Virus record (IMG/VR): IMGVR_UViG_3300047297_000242
Coordinates: 1 to 35,952 of that record
Source: a virus
DNA: 35,952 bases
Direction: 5' to 3' (one strand)
The notes under the pieces are model-generated. The model did no database searches and was not told the origin of the DNA. It saw only the letters and a program-made list of their open reading frames with translations. Made by a program: the position numbers and the translations under genes. Below, piece after piece: positions 1,240 through 32,580 of the stretch. Position 1 is the first letter of the stretch, and each line of letters begins with the position of its first letter.

Positions 1240-1258
1240 ACTTGCGAGGTAAGCAACA

Positions 1259-2333: not shown

Positions 2334-2404
2334 GCCACCTGACGGTGAGTGTTAGAACAACAACCAAATGAGCCACCCTGAATAAGCACCGGGGTGGCTT
2401 TTGT
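2334..2404 (+). ncRNA. Candidate small non-coding RNA, about 70 nt
   Basis: The stretch is bounded by an extended -10 promoter (2319-2327) and an intrinsic terminator (2371-2405). It holds no credible gene. Visible structure: a short CACC-TGAC-GGTG hairpin at the 5' end (about 2336-2347), an A/C-rich unpaired linker (AGAACAACAACCAAA), then the terminator hairpin. This hairpin-linker-terminator layout is typical of bacterial and phage small RNAs. A 5-codon frame (ATG 2368) lies inside the terminator stem and has no ribosome-binding site. No known RNA family is recognised. Confidence 0.45.
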
Positions 2405-2405
2405 T
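2371..2405 (+). terminator. Rho-independent terminator of the small RNA
   Basis: 8-bp stem AGCCACCC (2371-2378) with GGGTGGCT (2392-2399), loop of 13 nt, then TTTTGTT. The T-tract runs directly into the extended -10 box of the next gene, so termination and initiation elements touch. Confidence 0.8.
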
Positions 2406-2410
2406 ATAAT
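2402..2410 (+). promoter_or_regulatory. Leaderless promoter of the DUF5872-like gene
   Basis: Extended -10 TGT-TATAAT with TATAAT at 2405-2410, then only five bases (AGGCT) before the ATG at 2416. The predicted transcript start coincides with the start codon, so the mRNA would be leaderless. The promoter is nearly identical, including the spacer, to that of the 3D-domain gene. Confidence 0.65.
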
Positions 2411-2415
2411 AGGCT

Positions 2416-2631
2416 ATGTCTAGCGCAACAAAAAAAGACCCCGGTATGTGGAAGACCATCGTCTCCAGTGTCAAATCAGGAACCAAGGGTGGAGATCCTG
2501 GTCAATGGTCAGCTCGCAAAGCACAGTTAGCCACACAAAAGTACAAGGCTTCTGGTGGTGGTTACGTAGGCCCAAAGTCTAGCAGTAATAGCCTAGCTAA
2601 GTGGTCAAAACAAAATACCAAGTCCAAATAA
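2416..2631 (+). CDS. Small basic protein, DUF5872-like
   Basis: 71 aa, very Lys/Ser/Gly-rich. The core around residues 12-55 (WKTIVSSVKSG, GGDPGQWSARKAQLATQKYK, GGGYVG, then SLAKWSK) matches my memory of the short DUF5872 family found in phages and large DNA viruses. The family has no known function; its charge suggests nucleic-acid binding or a packaged minor virion protein. It is preceded by a -10 box 5 nt from the ATG and lacks a Shine-Dalgarno site. It is probably transcribed alone or with the next gene. Family name moderately sure, function unknown. Confidence 0.7.
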   Translation: MSSATKKDPGMWKTIVSSVKSGTKGGDPGQWSARKAQLATQKYKASGGGYVGPKSSSNSLAKWSKQNTKSK

Positions 2632-2741
2632 GAGTCTGATATATTACCTACGGGATCGGTGATCGCCATGCACGTAAACGCTCTGTAATCACCTTTCTCC
2701 CTAGGAGAAAACTCCGTATGACTTACCCGTTATAATGAGTC
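2632..2741 (+). other. Structured intergenic region
   Basis: This 110-nt gap holds an inverted repeat GGTGAT (2657-2662) / ATCACC (2688-2693) with a long loop, followed at once by a perfect hairpin TTTCTCC-CTA-GGAGAAA (2694-2710). The leaderless promoter of the next gene follows. The hairpin could end the upstream transcript, though there is no T-tract. A 6-codon frame at 2668 has no good ribosome-binding site and is not called. Confidence 0.4.
2731..2736 (+). promoter_or_regulatory. Leaderless promoter of the 321-aa gene
   Basis: Perfect TATAAT followed by five bases (GAGTC) and the ATG at 2742. There is no room for a ribosome-binding site downstream of the expected transcript start. No -35 is evident. 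Confidence 0.6.
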
Positions 2742-3707
2742 ATGGCTAAAGCAGATTGGTTTAGAGATGCCGCTAATACGGCAGTAGGCGTAGGTAGAGC
2801 TGCGTTAAGCAGGTTTGGTGCTCCAGCGGCAGAACCATCCACTGTTGACCGTATCCTATCTAAGGATCCAGGAACCATTGCTCGCGTACGAGGTAATACA
2901 AAACTAGCTAGCTCTGAACCAAGTAATCCATTAACTAAGACTAGTGCTTTTAGGACTATGGGTAAAAAGCCATCCGCTTTCAAAACCATTGCTAAAGGCG
3001 TTGGTACTAGTATGGTTGATGGGCTTAACCTTGCCAACAGTGGTGTTAGTCTAGCTCAAGGTGATTACGAAGCTTCACCAGGTAGAGTCATTGGAGATGT
3101 TGGATCATTAGCCCGTATTGCTAGGCTGAATCAAACCGTTGCCAATAAAGGTGGAGCACCTGTAAAGTTAGCTGCTGACCCACGTACAACCATGATTGCA
3201 TACGGCGCAGACATGGTAGCGCCACACGTCAAAGAAGCTTTTGACCCAACAGCTAACGCTGCTCGATTTGAGCAAAACAAAGCCACGGCTCTTAACCCAC
3301 CACCTGCTACTTACTGGGAAAAGCTCCTTGGATTGGAAAGTAAGCCATCTCAGGCTTATAAGGACTCCGTAACGGCTGGTGCACCTGTTAGCCCTAGTAA
3401 CTTTGGAGAAGCTCCACGCAAAGCAATGCAGGGTGCAAAGCAACTTGGTGGACCTACTAATTCCAGCCCGATGATCAACAAGCAGCTTGGTGAAATTTTT
3501 GACTTTGCACTACAACGAGGTATTGATCCTGCTTATGAATATATGGGTCACGTTATGCGCCGTGATGGACTAAGTGAAGAACAAGGTTTTCAGCTTTATA
3601 ACGCATTCATGAACAAACTTTACAAGCAACAAGCATTTGACAAAGCTGTAAATCAACCATTGATTACAGATCCGGGTCAGCTCGCTAAGTATCGAGAAGT
3701 ACGTTAG
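2742..3707 (+). CDS. Putative virion-associated protein with shared C-terminal helical domain
   Basis: 321 aa, not assignable to a family. The N-terminal two-thirds is Ala/Gly/Pro-rich with weakly hydrophobic helices (around residues 85-130). It resembles phage internal or ejection proteins in composition. Residues 249-305 (starting LGEIFDFALQRG, with VMRRDGLSEEQ) align by eye with residues 567-625 of the 672-aa protein at 9112-11130. The start is the ATG 5 nt after a TATAAT box, so translation is predicted to be leaderless. Its stop lies 2 nt from that of the convergent 3D-domain gene. A structural role is inferred. Confidence 0.55.
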   Translation: MAKADWFRDAANTAVGVGRAALSRFGAPAAEPSTVDRILSKDPGTIARVRGNTKLASSEPSNPLTKTSAFRTMGKKPSAFKTIAKGVGTSMVDGLNLANSGVSLAQGDYEASPGRVIGDVGSLARIARLNQTVANKGGAPVKLAADPRTTMIAYGADMVAPHVKEAFDPTANAARFEQNKATALNPPPATYWEKLLGLESKPSQAYKDSVTAGAPVSPSNFGEAPRKAMQGAKQLGGPTNSSPMINKQLGEIFDFALQRGIDPAYEYMGHVMRRDGLSEEQGFQLYNAFMNKLYKQQAFDKAVNQPLITDPGQLAKYREVR

Positions 3708-3728
3708 GTTTACTGCCTACCGTACTTC
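3696..3728. terminator. Hairpin spanning two convergent gene ends
   Basis: GAAGTACG (3696-3703) pairs with CGTACTTC (3721-3728). Inside, TAGG (3705-3708) pairs with CCTA (3716-3719) around a 7-nt loop. The 12 paired positions cover the last codons of both convergent genes. No clear T-tract follows on either side. It is probably a bidirectional transcript-end structure, though a protein-coding coincidence cannot be excluded. Confidence 0.4.
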
Positions 3729-4282
3729 ATCATCAACTGTTGCATATTGATCGGGCTTGCGGATGGAGGATACATTCCAGCCTGGCTATTCATCATCATT
3801 GTTCCCATTGCACTTTTGTTAGAGATTGCAGATGGAGCGAACTGTTGATTCATAGCTTTTTCAATAGGTTTCTTTGGAACGGGTCTAACTACGTTTTGAA
3901 AGTTAAATCCTTCACGAGCGCGTTGCTCATATTCTTCGGGATTCTTTGCATTGCCAACATCTGTACCTGGCGGATAAACGCTGACCTTTTGGTTTTGATG
4001 TCCGTAATCTTTGGCAACCTGACCTTCTGTAGCACCATAACCAAGGTCCACTCTATTGCCCTTTATGGCTCCGCCGGTGTCATCAGCAGTAGCCCATCCA
4101 TAACCAGGGATAAACATCTTTGATCCAAGTTTAATAACTTTGGGATCTACAGCTACACGTCCACGCCCAACAGGATTTCCTCTAGCTGTTGTAAATCCAC
4201 CTTGCATACGATCGTTCTTGGCATAGTACGCACTGACGTCAGAGTCAATGACACGACCACTGGACTTGTATTGCTTTTCCAT
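3710..4282 (-). CDS. 3D-domain (Asp-Asp-Asp) putative peptidoglycan hydrolase
   Basis: 190 aa. Residues 13-105 form a 3D domain, the double-psi beta-barrel of MltA/RlpA-type cell-wall lytic enzymes. The three acidic residues are visible: D46 in VAVDP, D68 in ADDTGGAIKG and D79 in NRVDLGYG. The C-terminal 80 residues are low-complexity, rich in Met, Gln, Pro and Ser. There is no signal peptide, so the protein would need a holin or be carried in the virion to reach the wall. The start is supported by TACAAT 5 nt upstream of the ATG (leaderless). It is the only lytic-type enzyme seen here. Whether it is the endolysin or a virion-associated lysin is open. Confidence 0.8.
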   Translation of the reverse strand: MEKQYKSSGRVIDSDVSAYYAKNDRMQGGFTTARGNPVGRGRVAVDPKVIKLGSKMFIPGYGWATADDTGGAIKGNRVDLGYGATEGQVAKDYGHQNQKVSVYPPGTDVGNAKNPEEYEQRAREGFNFQNVVRPVPKKPIEKAMNQQFAPSAISNKSAMGTMMMNSQAGMYPPSASPINMQQLMMKYGRQ

Positions 4283-4287
4283 TACCT

Positions 4288-4296
4288 ATTGTAACA
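4288..4296 (-). promoter_or_regulatory. Leaderless promoter of the 3D-domain gene
   Basis: Minus-strand extended -10 TGT-TACAAT (4296 to 4288), five bases (AGGTA), then the ATG at 4282. The AGG lies only 2 nt before the ATG, too close for a Shine-Dalgarno site. A TTCCAAT at about -35 overlaps the -35 of the divergent promoter. Confidence 0.65.
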
Positions 4297-4311
4297 AAAC
4301 GAATAATCACA

Positions 4312-4341
4312 TTGGAACCAGTGCTTACTTACGGGTATAAT
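4312..4341 (+). promoter_or_regulatory. Promoter of the SSB-ThyX operon
   Basis: TTGGAA (4312-4317), an 18-bp spacer and a perfect TATAAT (4336-4341). Start near 4348 gives a leader of about 27 nt carrying a GGAAGGA ribosome-binding site. It is the best conventional sigma-70 promoter in the window. Confidence 0.65.
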
Positions 4342-4374
4342 ACTACTGTTTGATTACCACGGAAGGACTACAGA

Positions 4375-4665
4375 ATGATTACAATCTGTAAACAAGGGCG
4401 CGACTCGGATTTTGACATCAAGATCCAACTAACGTCCATCGGAACGCAGCTGCACATTACTCATCAAACAGATGAGAATCCGGAGACCATCGTCTTTACA
4501 CCTACTCAGGCATGGAATTTCCTGTACAGCGAAACCATCAGCAGTAACAACAAGAGCGTTCCTACAAAGGTACTTCTTGAGCTTGCTGATTCCATCATCA
4601 ACATCAATAGTGCATCTAAGGTTACGTTGCCTGAATTCCATCTGGATGACGGTGAAGTACTATGA
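4375..4665 (+). CDS. Hypothetical protein, 96 aa
   Basis: Unrecognised 96-aa protein beginning MITICKQGRDSDFDIKIQL, with a strong GGAAGGA site 8 nt upstream. The predicted mix is beta strands in the N-terminal half and a helix near FTPTQAWNFLYSE, with an acidic C-terminus (LDDGEVL). It opens the metabolism operon and overlaps the SSB start (ATGA-type), so a replication or repair accessory role is possible. No motif supports a specific function. Confidence 0.6.
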   Translation: MITICKQGRDSDFDIKIQLTSIGTQLHITHQTDENPETIVFTPTQAWNFLYSETISSNNKSVPTKVLLELADSIININSASKVTLPEFHLDDGEVL

Positions 4666-5057
4666 TGAACTGCATCACCCTGGTTGGACGGCTTTGTGCT
4701 GATCCAGATATTCGAAATACAACCACAGGTAAGGTTGTTGCTGGCTTGCGCATTGCTGTTGATCGTCGTGGACGCGAGAAGGAAACTGACTTCTTTGAAG
4801 CATCCGCATTTGGTCAGACTGCATCCTTTGCTGGTGACTACCTTCGCAAGGGTCGGTTGGTAGCTGTAGTTGGCAAGCTTCGCACACGTGAATACGAAGC
4901 CAAAGACGGCACTAAGCGTAAGGTTTATGAGATCCTCGTCGATGACCTTACTCCATTGGATAAGGCTAAAGAGGGTGACCCTGGTGGATTCACCGCATCA
5001 TCCGCAGTGCCAAAAGCTGTAGCTGACTCCGATATCGAAGATCCGTTTGCTGAATAA
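4662..5057 (+). CDS. ssb: Single-stranded DNA-binding protein
   Basis: 131 aa, a typical bacterial/phage SSB. The OB fold spans residues 4-105: ITLVGRLCADPDIR strand, AGLRIAVDRR, the FFEASAFGQTASFAGDYLRKG block and VVGKLRTREYEAKDG. A short flexible linker follows. The acidic tip (DIEDPFAE) resembles the DDDIPF tail that recruits repair and replication partners. It coats single-stranded DNA during phage replication. Its start overlaps the stop of the 96-aa gene. A hairpin directly after the stop may reduce transcription into the rest of the operon. Confidence 0.95.
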   Translation: MMNCITLVGRLCADPDIRNTTTGKVVAGLRIAVDRRGREKETDFFEASAFGQTASFAGDYLRKGRLVAVVGKLRTREYEAKDGTKRKVYEILVDDLTPLDKAKEGDPGGFTASSAVPKAVADSDIEDPFAE

Positions 5058-5061
5058 CATT

Positions 5062-5086
5062 GGTGCAGTGGAAACACTGCACCTTT
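5062..5086 (+). terminator. Attenuator-like hairpin after ssb
   Basis: A perfect 9-bp stem GGTGCAGTG (5062-5070) / CACTGCACC (5075-5083) with a GAAA loop, but only TTT follows. It ends right at the ribosome-binding site of the next gene. A weak terminator or mRNA-stabilising end is more likely than full termination, since the downstream genes have no promoter of their own. Confidence 0.6.
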
Positions 5087-5095
5087 AGGTTAACT

Positions 5096-5350
5096 ATGAG
5101 AAATCCATTTACATATTTACGAGAGTTGTCCGATGACCTCAAAAGAGCACAAGATCGTTTAGTCCAGGAAATCCTTCGTTCAGATAAAGCGCAGAAAGAA
5201 CTGGCTGAAGCTAAGGCTAAGATTCAATCTTTGTATCTTGATCTCCACTCAACAAAAACATATGTTGAGGTACTGGAGAATAGCCTTGTTAGTAACAAGG
5301 AAAAAGACGCTAAGAATCAATACGATGAATTGGACATTCCTAAGAAGTGA
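5096..5350 (+). CDS. Coiled-coil protein, 84 aa
   Basis: 84 aa beginning MRNPFTYLRELSDDLK. The ATG at 5096 follows TTTAGGT, 7-10 nt upstream; an upstream extension to 5060 would run through the hairpin and is rejected. Residues 10-75 are highly helical and charged with heptad spacing (LKRAQDRLVQEILRS, KELAEAKAKIQSLYL), predicting a parallel coiled coil. The C-terminus is acidic then basic (DELDIPKK). It overlaps the next gene by GTGA. Role unknown. Confidence 0.6.
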   Translation: MRNPFTYLRELSDDLKRAQDRLVQEILRSDKAQKELAEAKAKIQSLYLDLHSTKTYVEVLENSLVSNKEKDAKNQYDELDIPKK

Positions 5351-5799
5351 AAGTCCAGCCTATTAATCTGCGTGATGCTAATCAGTACATTGCAGATAAT
5401 CACAGGCATCATAAACCAGTAGTGGGTCATCGCTTTAGCCTTCGGTGCATAAACGATGAAGGTCAATTGGTAGGCATAGTTATAGTTGGAAGACCTGTAT
5501 GCCGTAACTCTGGTGACCCACTTGAAGTATGCGAAGTAACACGTTTATGCACTGATGGAACGCCAAACGCTTGCTCAAAACTCTATGGAGCTGCCGCTAG
5601 GGTTGCTAAAGAAATGGGCTTTAAAAAGATACAGACATATATCCTGGAATGTGAACCTGGGGTATCTCTTACTGCATCAGGATGGAAGCTTGTAGCAACT
5701 ACACGTGGTGGACAGTGGGAGCATAGTGACGGTGTACCTCGTCGTAAAGACCAACCTGACACCAAGAAGACTCGATGGGAGAGAATACTGAATGACTAA
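5347..5799 (+). CDS. XF1762-like putative N-acyltransferase
   Basis: 150 aa from a GTG that overlaps the preceding stop. The pattern fits the XF1762 family of small phage/prophage proteins, predicted to have a GNAT-like fold: INLRDANQYIADNHRHHKP at the N-terminus, GIVIVGRPVCR, the EVTRLCTDG segment, ACSKLYGAAARVAKEMGFK and a C-terminal GWKL...WERI. Members are thought to be acyltransferases but the substrate is not known to me. It lies between a coiled-coil gene and thyX and overlaps thyX by 8 nt, suggesting coordinated expression with nucleotide metabolism. Confidence 0.8.
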   Translation: MKVQPINLRDANQYIADNHRHHKPVVGHRFSLRCINDEGQLVGIVIVGRPVCRNSGDPLEVCEVTRLCTDGTPNACSKLYGAAARVAKEMGFKKIQTYILECEPGVSLTASGWKLVATTRGGQWEHSDGVPRRKDQPDTKKTRWERILND

Positions 5800-6451
5800 C
5801 CATACAGCATCACTTGTATGGATTACACCTAAAGCTGAATTAACGATGGCATACATAGCCCGTGTCAGTAATCCAAAAAATCAAAACTCAGAATCACTCA
5901 AGCTGCTGGAGTACTGCATTAGGAAAAACCACTGGTCTGTATTTGAACAGGCATATGCTTGTTTTTCCATTGAGACTAATCGTGCAATCAGTCCGCAAAT
6001 CTTGAGGCACAGAAGTTTTACATTCCAGGAGTTTAGTCAAAGGTATTCGGCTGTCATTGCTGAAGATCAACACCTGCCAGATCAGAGGTTAGCTGGTGCA
6101 ACTAACAGGCAATCTAGTCTCCCGCTAGATCCAGATAATATTACAGATGAACAGATGCGAGCGTTGACCGATGCTGATTCAGCAATTTCATATGCATATG
6201 AATGCTATGACAACTTGCTCGATGCCGGGTTTGCAACTGAAACAGCCAGGTTTGTACTGCCTTTATCGGCTCCAACTAAACTGTACATGACTGGGAGCAT
6301 TCGTTCTTGGTTGCATTATGTTGAGCTTAGAACTCAATCAGATACACAACTCGAACATCAACTCGTTGCTAAGGCTATCGGTGAGATACTTGCGGAAGAA
6401 ATCCCGGTAACTTACAAAGCATGGCTAAACACACAAGACGCCAGACAATAA
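5792..6451 (+). CDS. thyX: Flavin-dependent thymidylate synthase
   Basis: 219 aa, the normal length for ThyX. The signature RHR-x7-S is intact (R72-H73-R74 to S82, in RHRSFTFQEFSQRYS). The N-terminal SNPKNQNSESLKLLEYCIRK and the helix with HWSVFEQAYACFSIE also fit. It converts dUMP to dTMP using FAD, NADPH and methylene-tetrahydrofolate in the cytoplasm, supplying thymidine for phage DNA. It is the last gene of the operon starting near 4348, and a bidirectional terminator follows. The start ATG overlaps the preceding gene by 8 nt. Confidence 0.97.
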   Translation: MTNHTASLVWITPKAELTMAYIARVSNPKNQNSESLKLLEYCIRKNHWSVFEQAYACFSIETNRAISPQILRHRSFTFQEFSQRYSAVIAEDQHLPDQRLAGATNRQSSLPLDPDNITDEQMRALTDADSAISYAYECYDNLLDAGFATETARFVLPLSAPTKLYMTGSIRSWLHYVELRTQSDTQLEHQLVAKAIGEILAEEIPVTYKAWLNTQDARQ

Positions 6452-6453
6452 AG

Positions 6454-6478
6454 AAAGCACCCTTACCGGGTGCTTTTT
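6454..6478. terminator. Bidirectional terminator between thyX and the methyltransferase
   Basis: A 9-bp perfect stem AAAGCACCC (6454-6462) / GGGTGCTTT (6468-6476) with loop TTACC. TTTTT follows on the plus strand and TTTCTTTATTG on the minus strand. The right arm lies in the last codons of the methyltransferase gene. Confidence 0.9.
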
Positions 6479-7902
6479 AGTATGTCGGAACACATCTGTA
6501 TTCTTCTGCCTACCCATGAGATAACAGGTATCGCCATAGAATTACCTAGGGCTTTATACCTCGCAGAATCAGACGCTGTAACAAGCTTTGACTCACACCC
6601 ATCCGGATGATGATACTTGCCGTACCGCTCCGGGTACACGTATCCCTTACGACGATAGAACGGAATGTTCGTATAGTTATCAGGGAATCCCTGTAATCTT
6701 TCGCATTCAGTAGGAGTCAATCTGCGAACACTCATTGCTGGTTGTTGCAGTATAGCTGGCTTGTTATCGCCCATATCAGCTCGTAGCGTTGGGCATAGAT
6801 CACTGATGCCGGATGGGCCGGCATTCCTTGCTACAGACCCAGGTTCAAAGGCGTGAGCAGTTAGAACCAGAGGTTGATTATCACCGTTCTTTGCCTGGCT
6901 GGCAAGCAGTGTTTGCGTTACTTGAGATAACTCAACATTGTTACCTAACCTGACGTTAGCTGGGTTGAATGTATAGGCTATGCCATGAACGCCAGTAGCA
7001 TTGAGCGTGTACATTGGACCGTCAACTGTAAAGCCATTACCGTTACCGCCATTGTGCGGTTGTCTACCTATGGTGTTCTCAGCTAACGCTATCGTGGACT
7101 GCACCAATGGTGTATTGTTACCACCGGTTCCCCATCGAGCTGCTACTGTTGGGCATACGTCAACTGGACCTGTAACACGACTATCGTTTGGATGACTTTC
7201 ATATACTAGCGGGGTCTGATTATTTATGCCCTTCATCAGGTTAGATGAGGTTAGGCAGGGGACTCCTGCGTACCCTTCTGAATTACTGATTCCAACGCTG
7301 CCTCCAACTCCGGTGGAAGCGGTTTGTTTCGCTGTTTGGCTCTTCGGATTATTCCGGCTGAAGCTTGAGGACTCAAATAATACGGCTGCAGATGGTCTCC
7401 AGTCTGCTCCACGATGTCCAACAAGGATGATTCGACGGCGTCTTTGGGGGACTCCAAAGTATTGAGCGTCCAGAATCCGGTAGCTGATGCTATAGCCGAT
7501 CTCTGCCAGGGCAGCAAGGAAGATTCCAAAGTCTCGTCCTTGATTGACGCTAAGAGCACCTGGGACATTTTCCCAGACGAGCCATTCTGGTTGCAGCTTG
7601 TCAACCAAGCCGACAAAGGCAAGGGCGAGGTTACCACGTGGGTCATCCAATCCCTTTCTGAGTCCAGCGATGGAGAATGCCTGGCATGGGGTTCCTCCAA
7701 TGATAAGGTCAACTGCACCTCTATGGATGTCCCATTGTTTGTATTCATTCAGATCTCCAAAGTTTGATACGCCTTCGTAGTAGTGATCCAATAACGTACA
7801 TGGAAAAGGTTCTATCTCTGAAAAACCAACGGGAGTCCACCCAAGGGACTCCCATGCAACTGTAGCTGCTTCAATGCCACTACATACACTCAAATAGCGC
7901 AT
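6463..7902 (-). CDS. C5-cytosine DNA methyltransferase
   Basis: 479 aa with the full set of Dcm-type motifs. Motif I: YLSVCSGIEAATVAWESLG. Motif IV: GGTPCQAFSIAG, catalytic Cys73. Motif VI: ENVPG (111-115). Motif VIII: QRRRRIILVG (153-162). Motifs IX-X: RLTPTECERLQGFP (394-407) and ALGNSMAIPV (451-460). The region between VIII and IX (about 165-390) is long and holds four short repeats of the form PT-[VL]-x-A...G-N-x-P-L-V, which would be the target-recognition part. It methylates cytosine C5, probably to protect phage DNA from host restriction. No cognate endonuclease is nearby. It is coupled (TAATG) to the LuxR-type gene upstream. Confidence 0.95.
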   Translation of the reverse strand: MRYLSVCSGIEAATVAWESLGWTPVGFSEIEPFPCTLLDHYYEGVSNFGDLNEYKQWDIHRGAVDLIIGGTPCQAFSIAGLRKGLDDPRGNLALAFVGLVDKLQPEWLVWENVPGALSVNQGRDFGIFLAALAEIGYSISYRILDAQYFGVPQRRRRIILVGHRGADWRPSAAVLFESSSFSRNNPKSQTAKQTASTGVGGSVGISNSEGYAGVPCLTSSNLMKGINNQTPLVYESHPNDSRVTGPVDVCPTVAARWGTGGNNTPLVQSTIALAENTIGRQPHNGGNGNGFTVDGPMYTLNATGVHGIAYTFNPANVRLGNNVELSQVTQTLLASQAKNGDNQPLVLTAHAFEPGSVARNAGPSGISDLCPTLRADMGDNKPAILQQPAMSVRRLTPTECERLQGFPDNYTNIPFYRRKGYVYPERYGKYHHPDGCESKLVTASDSARYKALGNSMAIPVISWVGRRIQMCSDILKSTR

Positions 7903-8162
7903 TAGTTCAATAATCCAAGCTCGCGCGCACGTTTGACTGCACGATCACGTGCGTTAATTCCGCTAACTGCCAATTTCCAATACAGATTGTCCGTGTGAAA
8001 CTGGACTGTCCGTGGGCTGATTCCGAGTGCTACGCCGATCATTTTGGCTGTTCTCTTGCCGTCCAACTGCTTCAAAATCTCCAACTCTCGTGCGGATAGT
8101 GGGTGTAGCAGTCCTGGTTTTTCGGCTGAAATCACTGTTGTTTCCTGCGTATCGGTGCTCAT
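7902..8162 (-). CDS. LuxR-type (GerE) helix-turn-helix regulator
   Basis: 86 aa. The ATG at 8162 is chosen because GGAG sits 5 nt upstream; the frame is open further back to 8270 but that part overlaps another gene. Residues 22-82 are a full GerE domain: LSARELEILKQLDGKRTAKM, then the recognition helix in ISPRTVQFHTDNLYWKL, and a final helix RAVKRARELGLL. There is no receiver or sensor domain, so it is a stand-alone DNA-binding regulator. Coupling to the methyltransferase (TAATG) suggests it regulates that operon or times phage genes. Confidence 0.85.
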   Translation of the reverse strand: MSTDTQETTVISAEKPGLLHPLSARELEILKQLDGKRTAKMIGVALGISPRTVQFHTDNLYWKLAVSGINARDRAVKRARELGLLN

Positions 8163-8436
8163 ATGTGCTCCAACATCTGTAGGCAGATGTGTCTGTTTTA
8201 AAGTATTCAAGGCTGATTCGTGACTCCTCTTTATTGCAGACAAAGTACTTACGTTCTTTGTCATTATCAATAGAGACTATCCACATCTCATAAGGCTTAG
8301 TAAACTCGTCAATGTATGTACCTTCTTTATGATCAATGACATTGAACTTGTACTTACCTTGTTTCTCCTTGGGTAGATAGGCTGTTGTCAGTAACGCTTC
8401 AATCACTAGTGGATCGTAAACGACTGATGATAGCAT
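7963..8436 (-). CDS. Hypothetical protein, first gene of the LuxR-methyltransferase operon
   Basis: 157 aa from the ATG at 8436, which lies 6 nt after TATACT and has no Shine-Dalgarno site (leaderless). Residues 1-90 look like a real protein (KYKFNVIDHKEGTYIDEF, SIDNDKERKYFVCNKEES). The last 67 residues, from about 8162 leftward, overlap the LuxR gene in another frame and are rich in Arg, Thr and Ser, as expected of a shadow translation. Either the gene truly overlaps, or it once ended sooner and lost its stop, or a frameshift joins it to the LuxR domain. Family not recognised. Confidence 0.5.
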   Translation of the reverse strand: MLSSVVYDPLVIEALLTTAYLPKEKQGKYKFNVIDHKEGTYIDEFTKPYEMWIVSIDNDKERKYFVCNKEESRISLEYFKTDTSAYRCWSTYEHRYAGNNSDFSRKTRTATPTIRTRVGDFEAVGRQENSQNDRRSTRNQPTDSPVSHGQSVLEIGS

Positions 8437-8442
8437 CAAGTC

Positions 8443-8471
8443 AGTATATACTTGCAGACTTGCTGGCGCAA
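8443..8471 (-). promoter_or_regulatory. Leaderless promoter of the leftward methyltransferase operon
   Basis: Minus-strand TTGCGC (8471-8466), a 17-bp spacer, TATACT (8448-8443), then six bases (GACTTG) and the ATG at 8436. Transcription would start at the A of the ATG. Confidence 0.65.
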
Positions 8472-8491
8472 CAGTTGCTTATTGGCTGATG

Positions 8492-8497
8492 TACAAT
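8492..8497 (+). promoter_or_regulatory. Leaderless promoter of the microprotein operon
   Basis: TACAAT, six bases (CAAGTT), then the ATG at 8504. An earlier in-frame ATG (8489) overlaps the -10 box itself, so it would not be transcribed from this promoter. No good -35 is visible. Confidence 0.6.
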
Positions 8498-8503
8498 CAA
8501 GTT

Positions 8504-8752
8504 ATGGGTGTCGTTAAAAAATATCAGAATCCTAAAGGTGGACTGAACGCGGCTGGTCGTGCTCATTTCAAGAAGTCCGAAGGTCTAAACTTGAAACCAC
8601 CTGCACCGAATCCTAAGACCCCTAAAGACGCATCAAGGCGTAAAAGTTTTTGTGCTAGGATGGAAGGCATGAAACGTGTTAACACGTCTTCTAAGACAGC
8701 TAAAGATCCTAATAGCAGGATTAATAAAAGCTTACGGGCGTGGAACTGTTAA
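8504..8752 (+). CDS. DUF6321-like small basic protein
   Basis: 82 aa beginning MGVVKKYQNPKGGLNAAG. It carries the features I associate with DUF6321: GGLNAAGRAHFKK, GLNLKPP, then ASRRKSFCARMEGM and the closing RINKSLRAWNC. The family is widespread in phages and large DNA viruses and is of unknown function; the high Lys/Arg content suggests nucleic-acid or virion association. The start at 8504 rather than 8489 is chosen because the first ATG lies in the -10 box. It overlaps the next gene by TAATG. Confidence 0.75.
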   Translation: MGVVKKYQNPKGGLNAAGRAHFKKSEGLNLKPPAPNPKTPKDASRRKSFCARMEGMKRVNTSSKTAKDPNSRINKSLRAWNC

Positions 8753-8997
8753 TGAATAAAAATATCAATCACGCACAAACTTTTAGACGTAATCTCCCAG
8801 ACATTGAACGTCGTGAACATGGATTAAAAAAAGCTCCTACTAAAGCACAAATGCAACAGATGGAAATGAAAGAACACGGATTAAAGCGGATGCCATCTAT
8901 GGGTCAGATAATGATGATGGAACGCAAAGAACACATACAGCCTGACGGCAATGTGATTATTGGTAAAGGTTACAAAGGAAGAGCGAGGACAAAGTAA
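8752..8997 (+). CDS. Basic protein with EHGLK repeats, 81 aa
   Basis: 81 aa from the TAATG overlap. Three imperfect units of about 19 residues fill the middle: IERREHGLKKAPTKAQMQQ, MEMKEHGLKRMPSMGQIMM and MERKEHIQPDGN. Each has E-x(2)-EH at the same place, suggesting repeated helices with a conserved His. The C-terminus is Gly/Lys/Arg-rich. It is not a known family to me. It lies between the DUF6321-like gene and a Cys-rich microprotein and overlaps both by one base, so the three are made together. Confidence 0.6.
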   Translation: MNKNINHAQTFRRNLPDIERREHGLKKAPTKAQMQQMEMKEHGLKRMPSMGQIMMMERKEHIQPDGNVIIGKGYKGRARTK

Positions 8998-9110
8998 TGG
9001 CTAAGACAGTGAAGACTATGAAACCGGCAAAGACTATGTCGGACATGATGGGCGTAAAGAAGGCTCATCCATCTGGTTGTAAGTGTCCAGGTTGCAAGAA
9101 GAACTGCTGA
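8997..9110 (+). CDS. Cys-rich microprotein, 37 aa
   Basis: 37 aa, starting in a TAATG overlap. The N-terminal half is Lys/Met/Thr-rich (MAKTVKTMKPAKTM). The C-terminus is SGCKCPGCKKNC, i.e. C-x-C-x2-C-x3-C, a plausible zinc or other metal site. Tight coupling on the left and only one base to the next start on the right support it as a real gene. Function unknown. Confidence 0.55.
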   Translation: MAKTVKTMKPAKTMSDMMGVKKAHPSGCKCPGCKKNC

Positions 9111-9111
9111 T

Positions 9112-11130: not shown

Positions 11131-11134
11131 AGAT

Positions 11135-11162
11135 AAGCCTCCTACGGGAGGCTTGTTTTTTT
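11135..11162. terminator. Terminator of the microprotein operon
   Basis: An 8-bp stem AAGCCTCC (11135-11142) / GGAGGCTT (11147-11154) with loop TACG, then GTTTTTTT on the plus strand. On the minus strand it follows the DUF3310 gene and leads into ATCTTTATTTTG, so it can serve both directions. Confidence 0.9.
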
Positions 11163-11402
11163 GGGTGCAATCAATTTAACTACTTCGTCACACGTATCCG
11201 TATTGTCTGTTAGATAGAAAGCAATAAACCAAATGGCTTTTGACAAGTCATCATGTTCGCTTTCCCCTGGTTTATGTCCGCAACGTGCAATGTACTTTAA
11301 TGCCGTAAACAACTCAAACCCTAGGTTCCAAGCACGAGCTACATATACAGGTTGGAAGTGCTTTTTTACAACAGCACGGTAGTGATCGGGTGAAGTTTTC
11401 AT
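11142..11402 (-). CDS. DUF3310-like protein
   Basis: 86 aa. The pattern fits DUF3310, a short family frequent in phages: DHYRAV near the N-terminus, ARAWNLGFELFTALKYIARCGHK in the centre and DDLSKAIWFIAFYL near the end. The family is sometimes labelled nucleotide kinase in databases, but no kinase motif is visible; its biochemical role is unproven. It stands alone, leftward, between two rightward operons. Its promoter shares a palindromic -10 with the divergent terminase operon. The last codons lie in the terminator hairpin. Confidence 0.75.
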   Translation of the reverse strand: MKTSPDHYRAVVKKHFQPVYVARAWNLGFELFTALKYIARCGHKPGESEHDDLSKAIWFIAFYLTDNTDTCDEVVKLIAPKKTSLP

Positions 11403-11412
11403 ATCGTTACCA

Positions 11413-11420
11413 GTATACTT
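11413..11420. promoter_or_regulatory. Palindromic shared -10 box for two divergent promoters
   Basis: AGTATACT at 11412-11419 is self-complementary, so TATACT is read on both strands. Rightward, six bases separate it from the ATG at 11426 (leaderless). Leftward, nine bases separate it from the ATG at 11402. Polymerase cannot occupy both directions at once, making the two genes mutually exclusive at this site. Confidence 0.55.
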
Positions 11421-11425
11421 ACGAG

Positions 11426-12199
11426 ATGAACTATTCTCAAGAAATTAATGACTCTCGTTACATCGACCGTGATGGACGTATGTACAGGGTCACCGCTACC
11501 GGCGAACAGCCAATTTGCAATGCTGTAATTGACCGTAACGGCGAGAAGGTTAGATGCAAGGCTATTGCATTATCTGGTCAAGACTTTTGTTTTCATCACG
11601 GTACAGAGCTGATAAAGCGTAATGAAAAACCACAGTTCCTCGCACACGCCTACAAGGTTAACCGGCGTAGATTTGCCAAGGCTGGTAAAGATTTACTTGA
11701 CAAGGTAGATGCACATCGAGAAGACCCAGAACTATTCAGCTTACGTGATGACACGGCTTATATCACCGCCTTAGTTGACGTCAGAGCCGAAGCTGCTGGA
11801 GAAGGCGTTAGCATAGAGCAATATCGAAAAATAGAATCGGCATACAACCTTGCCAGATCTAAACTAGGGTCTCCAGATTTCATCGATGCTTTTGAGCAGA
11901 TTGGTGATCTATTGAAAGAAAGCCTAGATGAATACTCTGCGTCTAAAGACGTATTGGAATTAATCTCACGTAGGGCTGATCTTGTAGAAGCTGAACAACG
12001 AATGATGCAAACGAAATCATATACACTTGAAGCAGATCAAGCATTCATGTTGATTATGCAAATCGTTGAAGTGGTCAAGACATCTGTGCGTGACGCAGAC
12101 GTATTGACGGCGGTCAAAGCTGGAATCAATAAACTACTTCGTCAGCACAAACAAGAGGTTGACGATCCAATAGAAGATGCGGTGGTAATTGATGGCTAA
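11426..12199 (+). CDS. Putative terminase small subunit (zinc-finger type)
   Basis: 257 aa from the ATG at 11426, 6 nt after TATACT; an upstream GTG (11390) would run through the promoter and is rejected. A Cys/His cluster near the N-terminus (C31, C44, C55, H57-H58 in ICNAV, RCKAIALSG, FCFHHG) matches the C-x-A...RCKA...G..C..HG motif seen in some phage small terminases. The rest is helical with a long coiled-coil-like part, and the C-terminus is acidic (VDDPIEDAV). Position just before terL with an 8-nt overlap is the main evidence. Such subunits recognise phage DNA and start packaging. Confidence 0.65.
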   Translation: MNYSQEINDSRYIDRDGRMYRVTATGEQPICNAVIDRNGEKVRCKAIALSGQDFCFHHGTELIKRNEKPQFLAHAYKVNRRRFAKAGKDLLDKVDAHREDPELFSLRDDTAYITALVDVRAEAAGEGVSIEQYRKIESAYNLARSKLGSPDFIDAFEQIGDLLKESLDEYSASKDVLELISRRADLVEAEQRMMQTKSYTLEADQAFMLIMQIVEVVKTSVRDADVLTAVKAGINKLLRQHKQEVDDPIEDAVVIDG

Positions 12200-16368: not shown

Positions 16369-16377
16369 GAGAACTAA

Positions 16378-17271: not shown

Positions 17272-17284
17272 GGAATAGAAGAAA

Positions 17285-18334: not shown

Positions 18335-18344
18335 GGAGTAACCA

Positions 18345-18869: not shown

Positions 18870-18876
18870 GTGATGT

Positions 18877-18903
18877 AAAGGGGTGGGTAACTACCCCTTT
18901 TTT
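18877..18903 (+). terminator. Internal terminator after the major head genes
   Basis: An 8-bp stem AAAGGGGT (18877-18884) / ACCCCTTT (18893-18900), 8-nt loop, then TTTG, giving TTTTTT overall. It lies inside the virion operon and would lower expression of connector and tail genes relative to the capsid. Confidence 0.85.
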
Positions 18904-18915
18904 GAAAGGATTAAT

Positions 18916-19977
18916 ATGGCAAAAGATGCCCTTCTCCAGACACTTGGAGTAATGAATGCGGGTACGGCGGCTATGGCCTCTGCTACTACGTATTACAGCT
19001 CCCCAGTAAGTCTTGAGCCATTCGGACAGAATGGAACACACAACAACCTCTTTATGCGGTTTATGTTGGCTCAACCAACATATGCTGCGCTTCCAGCTGC
19101 AACTACTGCATCTAACTTCCAGTTCGGAATTGATGTGACTAAAGACGGGGCAACCTGGAGTAATATTTACGCCAGCCCGACTGATCAGCAAGCGTTTAAG
19201 ACACACATTGTAAATACAATGTCTGCTACCGCTGGTCAGGCTCCACTTACGCTTTTGTATCCAACAGTTACAAGCACTGCAACGGTCACAAACGGTTCGG
19301 CAAATATTACAGCAGCTCCTGTTTGTAGTATTGGTGACGCACTTTACTTTGGTACTGCTGTTGCTCCATTTGCTCTTGCTACGCCATATTACGTTATTAG
19401 TATGACACCAACGCAAGCCACTGCTGGATCAGCAACATCTACCGCTACAGTGCAGTTGTCTGCAGCTCCAGGTGGAGTGCCAATTGTACCGACAGCTGGT
19501 GGAACTCCTGTTCTTACTAAGTACTTGACTAACTTGATCAACTACACTGTAGGTGAACTGGTTTACTGGACTGGTACTGCTGCTGCTGGTACTAACGCGG
19601 CTACAGCCGCTGTTGATACCGCAGTGCCACCTATTATCACTGGCGGTGGCAACGTCCAAAAGTTCTACGTACTGTCAGTTACATCGTCCATCACAGGGCA
19701 AGTTGTTACAATCAGCAACTCTCTTGGTGGACCGGCGTTTTTGACAACGCTTGGTATCACCGCTGGTGCGTCCTTCCTTGTTCAGCCATGTCTTGCTGGT
19801 GGTGAATACTACGTATCACTGAACACAACATCTGGATACATTGATGCATACGGAGCCGTGCAAGACACGTACAAGTATGTACGTGGTTGGATTAAACCAA
19901 CATTCCCTGCTGGTGTAAACCCATCGGCTCTTAGCCGTTGTGATGTTACGCCAGGGCGTGACGGAGCTTATTCCTAA
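18916..19977 (+). CDS. Capsid-associated protein with inserted beta modules
   Basis: 353 aa starting at ATG 18916, with AAAGGA 5 nt upstream. An extension to 18883 would start inside the terminator hairpin and is rejected. Residues 1-95 and 290-353 resemble the preceding 174-aa protein (TKDGATWSNIYASPTD; YKYVRGWIKPTFPAG). Between them are two extra beta-rich modules (about 118-200 and 209-288) with the YYVISMT / FYVLSVTSS pattern also seen in the tail hub at 24710. Probably a head decoration or head-surface adhesin; inferred. Confidence 0.6.
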   Translation: MAKDALLQTLGVMNAGTAAMASATTYYSSPVSLEPFGQNGTHNNLFMRFMLAQPTYAALPAATTASNFQFGIDVTKDGATWSNIYASPTDQQAFKTHIVNTMSATAGQAPLTLLYPTVTSTATVTNGSANITAAPVCSIGDALYFGTAVAPFALATPYYVISMTPTQATAGSATSTATVQLSAAPGGVPIVPTAGGTPVLTKYLTNLINYTVGELVYWTGTAAAGTNAATAAVDTAVPPIITGGGNVQKFYVLSVTSSITGQVVTISNSLGGPAFLTTLGITAGASFLVQPCLAGGEYYVSLNTTSGYIDAYGAVQDTYKYVRGWIKPTFPAGVNPSALSRCDVTPGRDGAYS

Positions 19978-21355: not shown

Positions 21356-21363
21356 GGAATAAG

Positions 21364-21654: not shown

Positions 21655-21658
21655 TTGA

Positions 21659-21913: not shown

Positions 21914-21914
21914 T

Positions 21915-28990: not shown

Positions 28991-29433
28991 TGTCAATAGA
29001 CATCCTCTACCCTGATGATTCATCGGCTAGTAGTGCGTCTACATCTAACGCTGGATCACTTAACGGGGTCACTGTTGTAGACATTGAAGAGACAAGTATT
29101 TTTGGCACACCTTTGTTGCCATATACCGCTGCCAATATGATTACGAAAGTAATAACTGCATCTGCAACTTTTGTTGATGCTCCGTTATTAATTATGGCAA
29201 ATGCTTCAGCCGGAGCAATAGTCGTTACGTTACCGGATGCAGGTAATGGTATTGGTAAACTAATTGCAATTATGAAAACCGACTCCTCTGCTAACACTGT
29301 CACGATTAATGCGGCGTCTTCTGAAACAGTTTACAAATTGGCTGCATTTACGAATTTGTCTACGCAGTATCAGACGGCTATGTTTATTGGAATCAAAAAT
29401 AGCTCATTTGTCGGATGGGTGAAGGTGGCGTAA
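28990..29433 (+). CDS. Small beta-rich tail protein, 147 aa
   Basis: 147 aa from a TAATG overlap. Residues 55-110 contain the pattern LLIMANASAGAIVVTLPDAG followed by GKLIAIMKTDSSANTVTINA, a short beta motif seen at the tips of many phage tail and fibre proteins. The N-terminus is Ser/Asp-rich. It would be an exposed fibre-tip or tail accessory protein. The pattern is well known in phage structural proteins but the exact role is not. Confidence 0.65.
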   Translation: MSIDILYPDDSSASSASTSNAGSLNGVTVVDIEETSIFGTPLLPYTAANMITKVITASATFVDAPLLIMANASAGAIVVTLPDAGNGIGKLIAIMKTDSSANTVTINAASSETVYKLAAFTNLSTQYQTAMFIGIKNSSFVGWVKVA

Positions 29434-30899
29434 TGAGTAATTTTTATCAGCAATATACTGAAGGTGGATCGCAATATCCTTTTAATCCTTATGGTTCAAA
29501 TAAGCAACCTAGGTTAGGTGGGATGCAGTTAGCTCAAGACCCTGAAGATTTCCAAGAAGGAGTTCAAGGTCAAGGTGGTGGGCAAATGGGTGGTATGGGA
29601 GCATTTATGAAAAGCCCATACGGTCAAATGCTTGCTTCTGCTGGCATGGGCATGGCGTCAGGACGTGGATTTGGCGAATCGCTCATGGGCGCTGGCATGG
29701 GTACAGCCAAGAACGAACTGCTGAAATACGGTCTTAACCATGCACTTGGTGGTGCTATGGGCGGACAAGCCCTAGGTGCATTGGGTGGACCTATGGGTAT
29801 GGCGGCTATGGCGGCTTTGCCAATGATTTCCAAAGGCTTCAGTAGCCTAGGTAAATCCCTAGGTCTTGGTGGACGTAATAAAGGTCCATCTCAGCAAGAA
29901 CTAGCAATGGGTCAAGCTAAGAGTAACCTGGCTGGTATGCGCGGCACGTACGGTGCTGACATGGGCGCAGGACAAGCACTTAGGGATAAGTACAACCCTA
30001 TGCTTGAAAATCAGATCGGTCGTATGCAAGAACTTGCAGATCGAGGTCTGTCCACTGAGTACAACACCCGGCAGATGGCTGGAGCTGCAGCTAACACAGA
30101 AGCATCCCGACGAGCGGCTGAAGCTCGTATGCGCGCAACAAGCGGAATGATTGGTGGAGGTCAGGCACTGTCTGGCTTTGGCGGTATCAATCAGGCTGCT
30201 ATTGGAGCACAAGCTCAGGGTGGCTACAACGCTGCCATGAACAATATGAATCAGCAACCTGGGTACATCCAGGCGTTAGCTGGCATGGCTGGATCGCAGA
30301 TTGGGCGTGGTGACAACTACTACAACCAAGGTCGATCTGGAATGATGAATCTTGACCAAAACCTTTATAACTTGAATGCACAAGAGAAGGCACGTGCTGA
30401 CGCTATGTCACAACAGAACCGTGATCGTGAAGCCAACATGATTGGTGGAGTCATGGGTATGGCTGGCACTGCAATGGGCATGGAACAGTCGCGTCGAAGT
30501 AACAATGATTACCTTACCGCTCTAGGACTACGTGGACAATCGTCTGATTCCACTGGAGTAACAGGTAATGCTGGTCGTACTGGAGCAACTGATGCTGAAG
30601 GTATTGCTAGAGAAATACTTGGTGAAGATGCATATCAAGGATTTAATCCACAGATTCCTCAGTTCTCACCTGATTTTGATAACAACTACAATCCACAAGT
30701 TAGTATGCCTAGCCTTCAACGAAGTGGACCACGAATGCCAGGCGGTGGGTTAGCACAATATAACTACGAAAACCCAATTGATCAGGATGAACTTGAACAG
30801 GATTATAATCAAAATAGATATCCTGTCGTTCCTCGTTACGGAAACCCCGGACGATTTAATGACCCACGGCAATTTGGCGCAGACTTTACTGGTAGGTAA
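29433..30899 (+). CDS. Putative internal (DNA-ejection) protein, Gly/Met-rich
   Basis: 488 aa; the ATG at 29433 overlaps the preceding stop and has AAGGTGG upstream. The N-terminus is Tyr/Gln/Pro-rich. Residues 50-145 are a Gly/Met/Ala hydrophobic region (GMASGRGFGESLMGAGMGTA, GPMGMAAMAALPMI) able to interact with membranes. The middle is helical with many Gln and Arg (TEASRRAAEARMRATSGM) and the C-terminus is polar. Composition and place after the tail hub match ejection proteins that leave the head with DNA and build a channel through the host envelope. Confidence 0.65.
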   Translation: MSNFYQQYTEGGSQYPFNPYGSNKQPRLGGMQLAQDPEDFQEGVQGQGGGQMGGMGAFMKSPYGQMLASAGMGMASGRGFGESLMGAGMGTAKNELLKYGLNHALGGAMGGQALGALGGPMGMAAMAALPMISKGFSSLGKSLGLGGRNKGPSQQELAMGQAKSNLAGMRGTYGADMGAGQALRDKYNPMLENQIGRMQELADRGLSTEYNTRQMAGAAANTEASRRAAEARMRATSGMIGGGQALSGFGGINQAAIGAQAQGGYNAAMNNMNQQPGYIQALAGMAGSQIGRGDNYYNQGRSGMMNLDQNLYNLNAQEKARADAMSQQNRDREANMIGGVMGMAGTAMGMEQSRRSNNDYLTALGLRGQSSDSTGVTGNAGRTGATDAEGIAREILGEDAYQGFNPQIPQFSPDFDNNYNPQVSMPSLQRSGPRMPGGGLAQYNYENPIDQDELEQDYNQNRYPVVPRYGNPGRFNDPRQFGADFTGR

Positions 30900-30904
30900 A
30901 ACAA

Positions 30905-32536
30905 ATGGCATTTAACTCAGGACTAGGTTCTGCTCTACAAGGCTTTAGTAAAGGTTATCTTGGTGCTTTGCAATTTGGCGAACGTCAAAAACAAGGCTAC
31001 ATGAACACTAAGCTGAAGCAAGATGACTTGACTTTCCGCAAAAGCCAAGCGTTGTCAGATGCTGCCTTCAGGCAGTTTCAAATCAAAGACGCAATGGAAG
31101 CTGCACAGGATCGTCGAGATACTGCCAAGTTGACTGCTACAGACCGAGCCAAGGCACTAAGGACTCAAGCTGGCATTGCGGCATCGAGTGCATTGAATGA
31201 AGACCTTAAGATGATCTCTGGGCTACAAGGTCCAGATCAGCTTCGAGCTTGGAACACTGCTCGCGCACGGCAGACGCAAATCCTTGGTGACGTCCTAGAC
31301 CCTGAAGAATTGCAGAAGCATCTAGATGGCGTATTGACTATGCCGGGTGCACCTATGCCAGGCATGACGCAACAGGGTTTTGTTGCCGGTGCTCCAATGG
31401 GTAACTCAAAACTTCTTGATGTAGGTAAGTTTGAAGGTTCACAGGGTCCACTTGAACCTGGTAAGCCACGTACATTCCAAAACCCAACAGACAACACATT
31501 TACTCAGGTTGGTCGATCACCTTTTGATCCACGGGCTGATGCCGCTAGAAAGATTATGATGGCTGGTATGGGTGGGTTTAATCCTGCCGGAATGGCACAG
31601 CTTGGTGGTGCAATAAGTAATATGTATCAGCCAGCAGCGGCAGGTATACCTGAACAACAAAGGGATTTTGGATATGAGCAAAATCTAAAACCTGAAGTAG
31701 GTCAGGTTCCTGTAACAGCTAATTACAAACTAGGCGCTTTAGATCAGGCAACCGTTGAAGGCAAACAAGCTGCTACAGCTAAAAATAAAATCAATTTAGA
31801 TATCCTGCAACAAACAAAACCCGATGTAATAAAACAAGCTCAACTTAGGACGGAAAAACTAGTACAAGGCATTAATGACTCTGTGTTTAATCGTGAGTAC
31901 AAAAAAGGTTTATTTAAGTTACAAACCGATAAATTTTCACTAGCTAAAACTCTTGGAGAGGCAGCTTTGCAATTTAAAGCAGCAAATCTGGATCAAGGTG
32001 AAAGACGTTTAAAAAATGCAGAGTTAATGACTCAGCTTAAGGCATCTTATGACCCGATGAGAATGGGAACTGCAACTCAAATAACAATAGCCAAACTTAT
32101 AGATACTAAATCTAGAGTAACTGATAAAGGAGAAAAAGCAAGAATTGATGCTTCAATTGCTACTCTTCAAAAAGATCAAGCTAGATTTTTTGCATTAGGC
32201 CAAATGTCTGCCGATAGAGAAGGCAAATTTCTTGATTCGTTTATGGCATTAAAAGATTCTGGTTATTCAGATGAAGGTGCTATGGATACGTTACTTGATT
32301 TTAAAACCGGAGACACACTACAAGATAGTGCGTTTATTCCTGTTGGTAATCCAGCATATGCGGGACTTAGGAATAACGTAGATCGAAATACAGCGTTTCC
32401 TGGAACAAACCCATCTGGTAAAAAAGCAAATGCAGATGGCAATAGGCAGCAAGCTGGCAACCCATTAGGACTACCTGGTGGCAATCATGCTGGACCAGGT
32501 GCATCACGTCCACAAGTGAGACAATTCGGTCGTTAG
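30905..32536 (+). CDS. Putative internal coiled-coil ejection protein
   Basis: 543 aa beginning MAFNSGLGSALQGFSKGYLG, a start like that of other podovirus ejection proteins. Long helical stretches (TKLKQDDLTFRKSQALSDAA, DRRDTAKLTATDRAKALRTQ) alternate with Pro/Gly-rich linkers. From about nt 31640 to 32440 the DNA is visibly more AT-rich and prefers AAA and TTA codons, unlike the flanks, suggesting a swapped segment. The C-terminus is Gly/Asn-rich. Role inferred from order and composition. Confidence 0.6.
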   Translation: MAFNSGLGSALQGFSKGYLGALQFGERQKQGYMNTKLKQDDLTFRKSQALSDAAFRQFQIKDAMEAAQDRRDTAKLTATDRAKALRTQAGIAASSALNEDLKMISGLQGPDQLRAWNTARARQTQILGDVLDPEELQKHLDGVLTMPGAPMPGMTQQGFVAGAPMGNSKLLDVGKFEGSQGPLEPGKPRTFQNPTDNTFTQVGRSPFDPRADAARKIMMAGMGGFNPAGMAQLGGAISNMYQPAAAGIPEQQRDFGYEQNLKPEVGQVPVTANYKLGALDQATVEGKQAATAKNKINLDILQQTKPDVIKQAQLRTEKLVQGINDSVFNREYKKGLFKLQTDKFSLAKTLGEAALQFKAANLDQGERRLKNAELMTQLKASYDPMRMGTATQITIAKLIDTKSRVTDKGEKARIDASIATLQKDQARFFALGQMSADREGKFLDSFMALKDSGYSDEGAMDTLLDFKTGDTLQDSAFIPVGNPAYAGLRNNVDRNTAFPGTNPSGKKANADGNRQQAGNPLGLPGGNHAGPGASRPQVRQFGR

Positions 32537-32544
32537 ATTTATTG

Positions 32545-32580
32545 GAGCTGTTCTTGGTAAAATCAAACCATGGACAGCTC
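32545..32580. promoter_or_regulatory. Dyad surrounding a leaderless start
   Basis: GAGCTGT (32545-32551) and ACAGCTC (32574-32580) form a 7-bp inverted repeat; nested TGGT/ACCA adds four pairs. The -10 box and the start codon lie inside. It may be an operator on DNA, or an RNA hairpin that hides the ATG in read-through transcripts. Confidence 0.45.
32555..32563 (+). promoter_or_regulatory. Leaderless promoter before the giant ejection gene
   Basis: Extended -10 TGG-TAAAAT (TAAAAT 32558-32563), six bases (CAAACC), then the ATG at 32570. No ribosome-binding site is visible. It would give this late gene its own transcript in addition to read-through from the virion operon. Confidence 0.55.

Follow-up and report, generated by a model that had tools for sequence, protein, structure and literature searches.

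Genes and −10 boxes at the locus

The window, by which the whole 35,952-nt stretch of viral DNA analysed here is meant, is a phage fragment from freshwater in which 42 gene starts were called. The first-pass annotation of this DNA had described seven starts on both strands with a −10 box ending 5-6 nt before the ATG and an eighth with a gap of 9 nt; all eight boxes were located as given. Two of the starts have the arrangement TATAAT-5-ATG, namely those of a gene for a 71-amino-acid protein of phrog_17747, a family of unknown function (2416..2631, +; box 2405..2410), and of a gene for a 321-amino-acid protein of unknown function (2742..3707, +; box 2731..2736). A terminator-like hairpin with a T-run lies directly 5' of the first of these boxes. 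The gene for a 3D-domain peptidase-like protein (3710..4282, −) begins with TACAAT-5-ATG (box 4288..4293), and gene A (7963..8436, −), which overlaps out of frame with a GerE/LuxR-type HTH reading frame at 7902-8270, with TATACT-6-ATG (box 8443..8448); a possible −35 element of the latter, TTGCGC, is found 17 bp upstream of the box. The 82-amino-acid DUF6321 protein is encoded at 8504..8752 (+) behind TACAAT-6-ATG (box 8492..8497). A gap of 6 nt is also found after the TATACT box (11414-11419) of the 257-amino-acid gene at 11426..12199 (+), which stands directly 5' of the large terminase gene and, by position only, may encode the terminase small subunit, and after the TAAAAT box (32558..32563) of a giant gene at 32570..35952 (+), which runs off the window and encodes 2842-4431 amino acids in relatives. 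All seven genes are predicted to be leaderless. The eighth start, that of the DUF3310 gene (11142..11402, −), reads TATACT-9-ATG (box 11412-11417), giving a predicted leader of ~3 nt.

No Shine-Dalgarno (SD) site was found before any of the seven starts with a 5-6 nt gap (0/7), and the first T of their TANNNT-type boxes lies 11-12 bp upstream of the start codon; these are two of the features by which leaderless TA-led genes were defined (Zheng et al. 2011), a third being an mRNA that begins no more than a few nt from the start codon. Leaderless-type heads make up 7-8 of the ~11 unit heads in the window. Two heads are leadered: TATAAT at 1234-1239 is followed by a leader of ~13 nt with GAGG (feature 1234..1258, +) before the ATG at 1259, and TATAAT at 4336-4341 by one of ~27 nt with GGAAGGA (feature 4336..4374, +) before the ATG at 4375. 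Starts related to 1259 carry a GGAGG-type site. A search around the start of the minus-strand gene at 291-770 gave no strong −10. It had also been claimed that genes inside operons carry SD sites, and this stands in part: an SD-like tetramer precedes ~18 of the ~31 internal starts, but many of the rest share bases with the stop codon of the preceding gene, a pattern as in translational coupling.

Spacing, controls and conservation in relatives

A strong hexamer was defined as TATAAT with at most one change among the middle three bases, and such hexamers occur at 0.00146 per position in the window. A strong box at 5-6 nt was found at 7 of the 42 called gene starts against an expectation of 0.12 (Poisson P 7e-11), and at only 4 of 1256 non-start ATGs (Fisher P 7e-9 versus gene starts). 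In IMG/VR relatives, the distance from a −10-type hexamer to the next ATG opening a reading frame has its sole peak at 5-7 nt, with counts at the three distances of 4/27/19 for TATACT, 9/10/11 for TACAAT and 8/4/0 for TATAAT. For the relatives, gene starts were set at the first ATG of a reading frame or by alignment, without a full gene caller, and redundancy was cut at 75-85% identity, which leaves sequences that are still not fully independent. The peak was absent with scrambled hexamers in the relatives and in the control genomes T7, P-SSP7, HTVC104P and those of Prochlorococcus type; strong hexamers were too few to judge in the actinophages of known host Shocker, DS1 and BFK20. Immediately before boxed ATGs a pyrimidine stands in 77% of cases, against 33% at SD starts (P 3e-10); this would be expected of transcription that begins at the A of the ATG, and it is an indirect sign of an mRNA 5' end at or close to the start codon. 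At 90 non-redundant boxed sites of the relatives a weak TG was observed before the −10, SD-like words occurred at 4, and a conserved −35 was sought and not found.

Conservation of the spacing, the check that the first-pass annotation had proposed, was confirmed at orthologous starts, where the 5-7 nt gap is kept even at 29-40% protein identity, and box and spacing are retained while the flanks change. The box stands at 5 nt in 5/5 distinct orthologues of 4282(−), at 5-6 nt in 7/7 of 8436(−), at 6 nt in 11/18 of 11402(−), at 6-7 nt in 10/13 of 11426(+) and at 5-7 nt in 13/28 of 8504(+). For 2416(+), the test at 5-7 nt found it at 5-6 nt in 7 of 19, and for 32570(+) the gap is exactly 6 nt in all four orthologues (29-73% identity). 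An aligned orthologous start of 2742(+) was not found among the relatives. The leadered start 4375(+), used as a control, was leaderless in none of nine orthologues. Little or no box enrichment was seen in relatives G010, G017, G020 and G026; hence it is not a fixed trait of the wider group. The idea of systematically leaderless operon heads is well supported for most heads, but it fails for 1259 and 4375 and has little or no signal behind it in those relatives.

At some boxless orthologous starts the unchanged start codon follows a GGAGG-type site instead, and orthologues of 8504 and 2416 that have an SD site in place of the box share the starting residue. Since an SD site often stands where orthologues are boxless, the start codon calls themselves are supported. 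The mutual exclusion of SD and −10 gave a pooled Fisher P of 2e-5 (5e-4 after removing the control gene) and, per gene, P of 0.07 and 0.33, neither significant alone; it is partly mechanical, because both signals fill the same 15 nt.

A palindrome as a possible shared −10 of two divergent genes

The divergent genes starting at 11402(−) and 11426(+) have their start codons 23 bp apart, and between them lies one perfect palindrome, AGTATACT (11412..11419), which contains the −10 TATACT of each. De novo counts of words upstream of starts returned SD words together with AGTATACT, which was the second most enriched 8-mer. The shared palindrome is conserved in relatives, with start codons 20-23 bp apart; among these, close variants have the A's of the two start codons 21 bp apart, which puts both predicted transcription starts exactly on the start codons.

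In bidirectional promoters, a near-symmetrical −10 usable on both strands serves two divergent transcripts that start 7-25 bp apart (Middlemiss 2023, PMC10268837; E. coli study 2026, PMC12825309), and AGTATACT has this symmetry and this position between divergent genes. It may act as the −10 of both units, with promoter activity in both directions. In contrast to the known cases, neither phage transcript is predicted to have a leader, which leaves only 20-23 bp between the start codons; the predicted start-to-start distance is 21 bp, against a commonest value of 18 in known bidirectional promoters. The balance tips modestly towards the view that, in several lineages, a single 8-bp palindromic −10 sets the start of transcription and of translation for two divergent leaderless genes. 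Such an arrangement would rank among the most compact two-gene start signals.

Leaderless expression, its alternatives and the host

Judged from the sequence, seven and probably eight units very probably have −10-dependent promoters that place the RNA start at the first base of the start codon or within ~3 nt of it and so yield leaderless mRNA. For most unit heads, the first-pass proposal of leaderless expression is well supported by spacing conservation, the exchange of SD and −10, the pyrimidine at −1 and the controls. RNA polymerase, presumably with a host sigma factor at the −10 boxes, would begin at the start codon's A or no more than ~3 nt from it, and the message would be translated through a host route in which the ribosome binds the 5'-terminal AUG. 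Further along these units, many genes would be translated via SD sites or stop-start coupling.

Chance, or a general T/A-rich composition before genes, is hardly credible as the source of the boxes: the weakness of the signal in several relatives would agree with it, but the P of 7e-11 in the window, the conservation of box and spacing amid changing flanks, and a sharp 5-7 nt peak that is lost with scrambled hexamers and absent from control phages and cyanobacterial genomes all argue against it. The boxes might instead be real promoters of leadered transcripts in which translation truly starts further 3', at codons preceded by SD sites, with the ATGs named here lying just close to the transcription start. 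An A is a good initiating base, and an ATG at +1 could thus arise without being translated; yet this is very unlikely, since the SD-bearing orthologues of 8504 and 2416 begin at the same residue and orthologues conserve the reading frames from these ATGs onward. It is likewise improbable that AGTATACT and similar boxes are operators of a dimeric phage regulator, such as the GerE-type protein of 7902-8270, whether instead of or besides being −10 elements. The perfect palindrome and the GCAAGTATA-like words at the 8436(−) promoter in relatives would suit an operator, but other leaderless sites have the non-palindromic TATAAT, TACAAT and TAAAAT at the same distance, and an operator alone would account neither for the fixed distance nor for the pyrimidine bias at −1.

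Leaderless expression from a −10 element has precedents in bacteria. In Actinobacteria and Deinococcus-Thermus, more than 20% of genes are leaderless and are marked by a TANNNT motif ~12 bp upstream (Zheng 2011, PMC3160421), and mutation in Deinococcus demonstrated that leaderless genes are driven by a −10 motif located 6-7 bp ahead of the reading frame (Zhong 2025, PMC12340547). The conserved box and distance at the phage starts agree with a dependence of expression on both. These TA-led genes resemble the phage genes in that the first T lies ~11-12 bp before a start codon without an SD site, operon-first genes are leaderless and distal ones use SD sites, and the −35 is dispensable (demonstrated in Deinococcus). 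They differ in that here a phage family is concerned, with the trait gathered at a few unit heads, near-consensus TATAAT/TATACT boxes and starts that are predicted. Among phages, the cI mRNA of lambda (discussed in PMC9031893) is likewise translated without a leader, but it represents a single gene, whereas in the present phage most unit heads, and orthologous heads across the family, are predicted to be so. The open-access literature provided single phage examples of leaderless expression; no family of phages with most unit heads expressed in this way was found there. The best reading is that the leaderless −10 scheme of Actinobacteria and Deinococcus is in use by a phage family. Gene-finding programs for which an SD site or an upstream leader is obligatory will place such starts wrongly. 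The occurrence of the same gene as leaderless in some lineages and SD-led in others opens the evolution of both initiation modes to direct testing.

Hosts with efficient translation of leaderless mRNA are weakly indicated by the scheme. WhiB was not found in 30 relatives, no carrier of the terminase was found by a pattern scan of GTDB genomes, and tblastn with two large virion proteins gave no matches. A ThyX scan returned nearly all its matches from Prochlorococcus, at ~50% identity; these were judged to reflect the distribution of the enzyme rather than the host. DUF6321 is widespread among cyanophages and pelagiphages, DnaB and DUF7227 of one relative matched proteins from mixed hosts, and the terminase and capsid matches were mixed as well. 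The portal protein matched actinophages only, at ~25% identity, and points weakly to that group.

The -10 boxes at the heads of transcription units

The window (35,952 bases of an IMG/VR virus record, ~45% GC) is probably a fragment of a virus genome, with a block of virion genes from ~11 kb onwards that includes those of the terminase, portal and major capsid protein. The eight -10 boxes reported in the first-pass annotation, before the ATGs at 2416, 2742, 4282 (minus), 8436 (minus), 8504, 11426, 32570 and 11402 (minus), were all found in place, with spacers of 5, 5, 5, 6, 6, 6, 6 and 9 nt between box and ATG. Strong hexamers (TATAAT with at most one change in the middle three bases) occur in the window at a frequency of 0.00146 per position; one lies 5-6 nt upstream of 7 of the 42 called starts vs 0.12 expected (P 7e-11), and of only 4 of 1256 non-start ATGs.

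About 11 starts in the window resemble heads of transcription units; seven match the leaderless pattern, and 11402 minus comes close to it. The heads at 1259 and 4375 are clearly leadered, with Shine-Dalgarno (SD) sites, and the 291-770 minus unit has no strong -10 hexamer at its start; the proposed rule that heads are leaderless thus describes most heads but not all. Internal genes had been said to carry SD sites, and this holds for ~18 of ~31 internal starts, which have an SD-like tetramer, but not for the rest, many of which overlap the preceding stop codon.

At 2340-2410 of the window, a terminator-like hairpin with a T-run is followed directly by a -10 box and ATG, and the same order is seen in orthologues of the 11426 gene (relative loci L012-L026), so that terminator, promoter and start codon lie within ~50 nt. 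A hairpin-like AGGGGTGGGTAACTACCCCTTTTTT between two virion genes (18870-18916, plus), followed by an SD site, may act as a partial terminator within the late unit.

Spacing in relatives and the probable start of transcription

In 80 IMG/VR loci collected via the terminase and 80 via the portal, the gap between a TATACT, TACAAT or TATAAT hexamer and the first ORF-opening ATG after it has a sharp maximum at 5-7 nt, which is absent for scrambled hexamers in the same loci. T7, cyanophage P-SSP7, pelagiphage HTVC104P and pooled segments of Prochlorococcus-type genomes lack this maximum as well; in three actinophages of known host, strong hexamers were too few for comparison. When orthologous starts were aligned and near-identical upstream regions left out of the counts, a box at 5-7 nt was kept at 4282 minus (5/5), 8436 minus (7/7), 11402 minus (11/18), 11426 (10/13), 8504 (13/28) and 2416 (7/19), vs 0/9 at the leadered control 4375. 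The gene at 32570, of which 32570-35952 (plus) is the 5' part, is a giant one, with orthologous ORFs of 2842, 4046 and 4431 aa and no match in the annotated phage collection; in each of four orthologues (29-73% identity) its box stands exactly 6 nt ahead of the start. Conservation of the spacing in relatives, proposed in the first-pass annotation as a check, is borne out.

Orthologues that have no box often carry a GGAGG-type site before the same start codon, which supports that codon and indicates that the two initiation modes exchange. Pooled over genes, the mutual exclusion of SD site and -10 box is significant (P 2e-5; 5e-4 with the control gene left out), though partly mechanical, since both signals need the same space. 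Among 13 large relatives, enrichment is clear in G001, G002, G005, G015, G021 and G024, weaker in G004 and G011, and small or absent in G010, G017, G020, G026 and G028, and hence the trait varies between lineages. With this variation and the leadered heads at 1259 and 4375, the description of leaderless initiation as systematic is only partly supported.

The RNA polymerase of bacteria favours start sites with a pyrimidine at -1 and a purine at +1. A pyrimidine precedes the ATG at 77% of non-redundant -10 sites vs 33% of SD-led starts (P 3e-10) and 39% of other starts (P 2e-8), which, given this preference, fits transcription starting at the A of the ATG. Across 90 sites, no conserved -35 hexamer was found, a weak TG lies just upstream of the -10 box, and SD-like words occur in only 4. 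When 8-mers enriched ahead of ORF starts were counted without supervision, SD words came up, and so did AGTATACT, the second most enriched of all (18-fold).

The TA-led leaderless genes of Actinobacteria and Deinococcus-Thermus carry a TANNNT box ~12 bp ahead of the start codon; the first gene of an operon is leaderless, and those further along rely on SD sites (PMC3160421). In Deinococcus, mutations showed that such a box, placed 6-7 bp ahead of the ORF, drives leaderless genes, the -35 being optional (PMC12340547). The sequence evidence for the phage heads fits the same scheme, and comparison supports their predicted leaderless expression well. By the same proposed mechanism, the polymerase of the host, carrying its main sigma factor, would act on a -10-dependent promoter, and translation would begin at the 5'-terminal AUG. 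Such genes are known in bacteria; what is new is that a phage family would have them at most of its heads, together with a putative palindromic start element for two genes.

A palindromic box between divergent genes

The DUF3310 gene (11402 minus) and the gene at 11426 plus diverge from start codons 23 bp apart, and the interval holds a single palindromic box, AGTATACT, with TATACT on either strand. With differing flanks, the arrangement recurs in relatives as CAT-6 nt-AGTATACT-6 nt-ATG (L029, L044) and CAT-6-AGTATACT-7-ATG (L280, L047), and L127 has an overlapping TATACT/TACAAT version. With 6 nt on both sides, starts predicted 7 bp from each box would coincide exactly with the two A's, 21 bp from each other. 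Enterobacteria are known to have bidirectional promoters with a shared -10, whose divergent starts are most often separated by 18 bp (PMC10268837; PMC12825309). AGTATACT is a putative two-gene palindromic start element; a search of open-access literature found no phage or bacterial case combining a bidirectional promoter with leaderless genes.

Next to the terminase gene, L029, L044, L046, L047 and L280 have divergent start codons separated by only 20-21 bp, with AGTATACT between them.

Host and neighbouring genes

The expression scheme had been offered as a clue to the host, and this is borne out in part. The only phages with detectable similarity to the portal (~25% identity) infect Actinobacteria (Microbacterium, Cellulosimicrobium), but terminase and capsid gave mixed matches, 30 relatives yielded no WhiB gene, and a pattern scan of GTDB genomes turned up no related terminase. 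The phage would seem to come from freshwater, and a freshwater actinobacterium is a reasonable guess at its host, no more.

On the minus strand (7902-8436), ORF A (8436-7963) overlaps the GerE/LuxR-type HTH ORF B (8270 or 8160 to 7902) out of frame by ~200-300 nt, and either frame aligns to relatives over nearly its full length. ORF B may have its start at ATG 8160, preceded by GGAG, or the two may be joined by frameshifting. The DUF6321 protein encoded at 8504-8752 (plus) has counterparts in 499 phage records, most of them from cyanophages and pelagiphages, and a tRNA-like sequence ends directly ahead of the -10 box of its gene in several relatives (L067, L081, L082).
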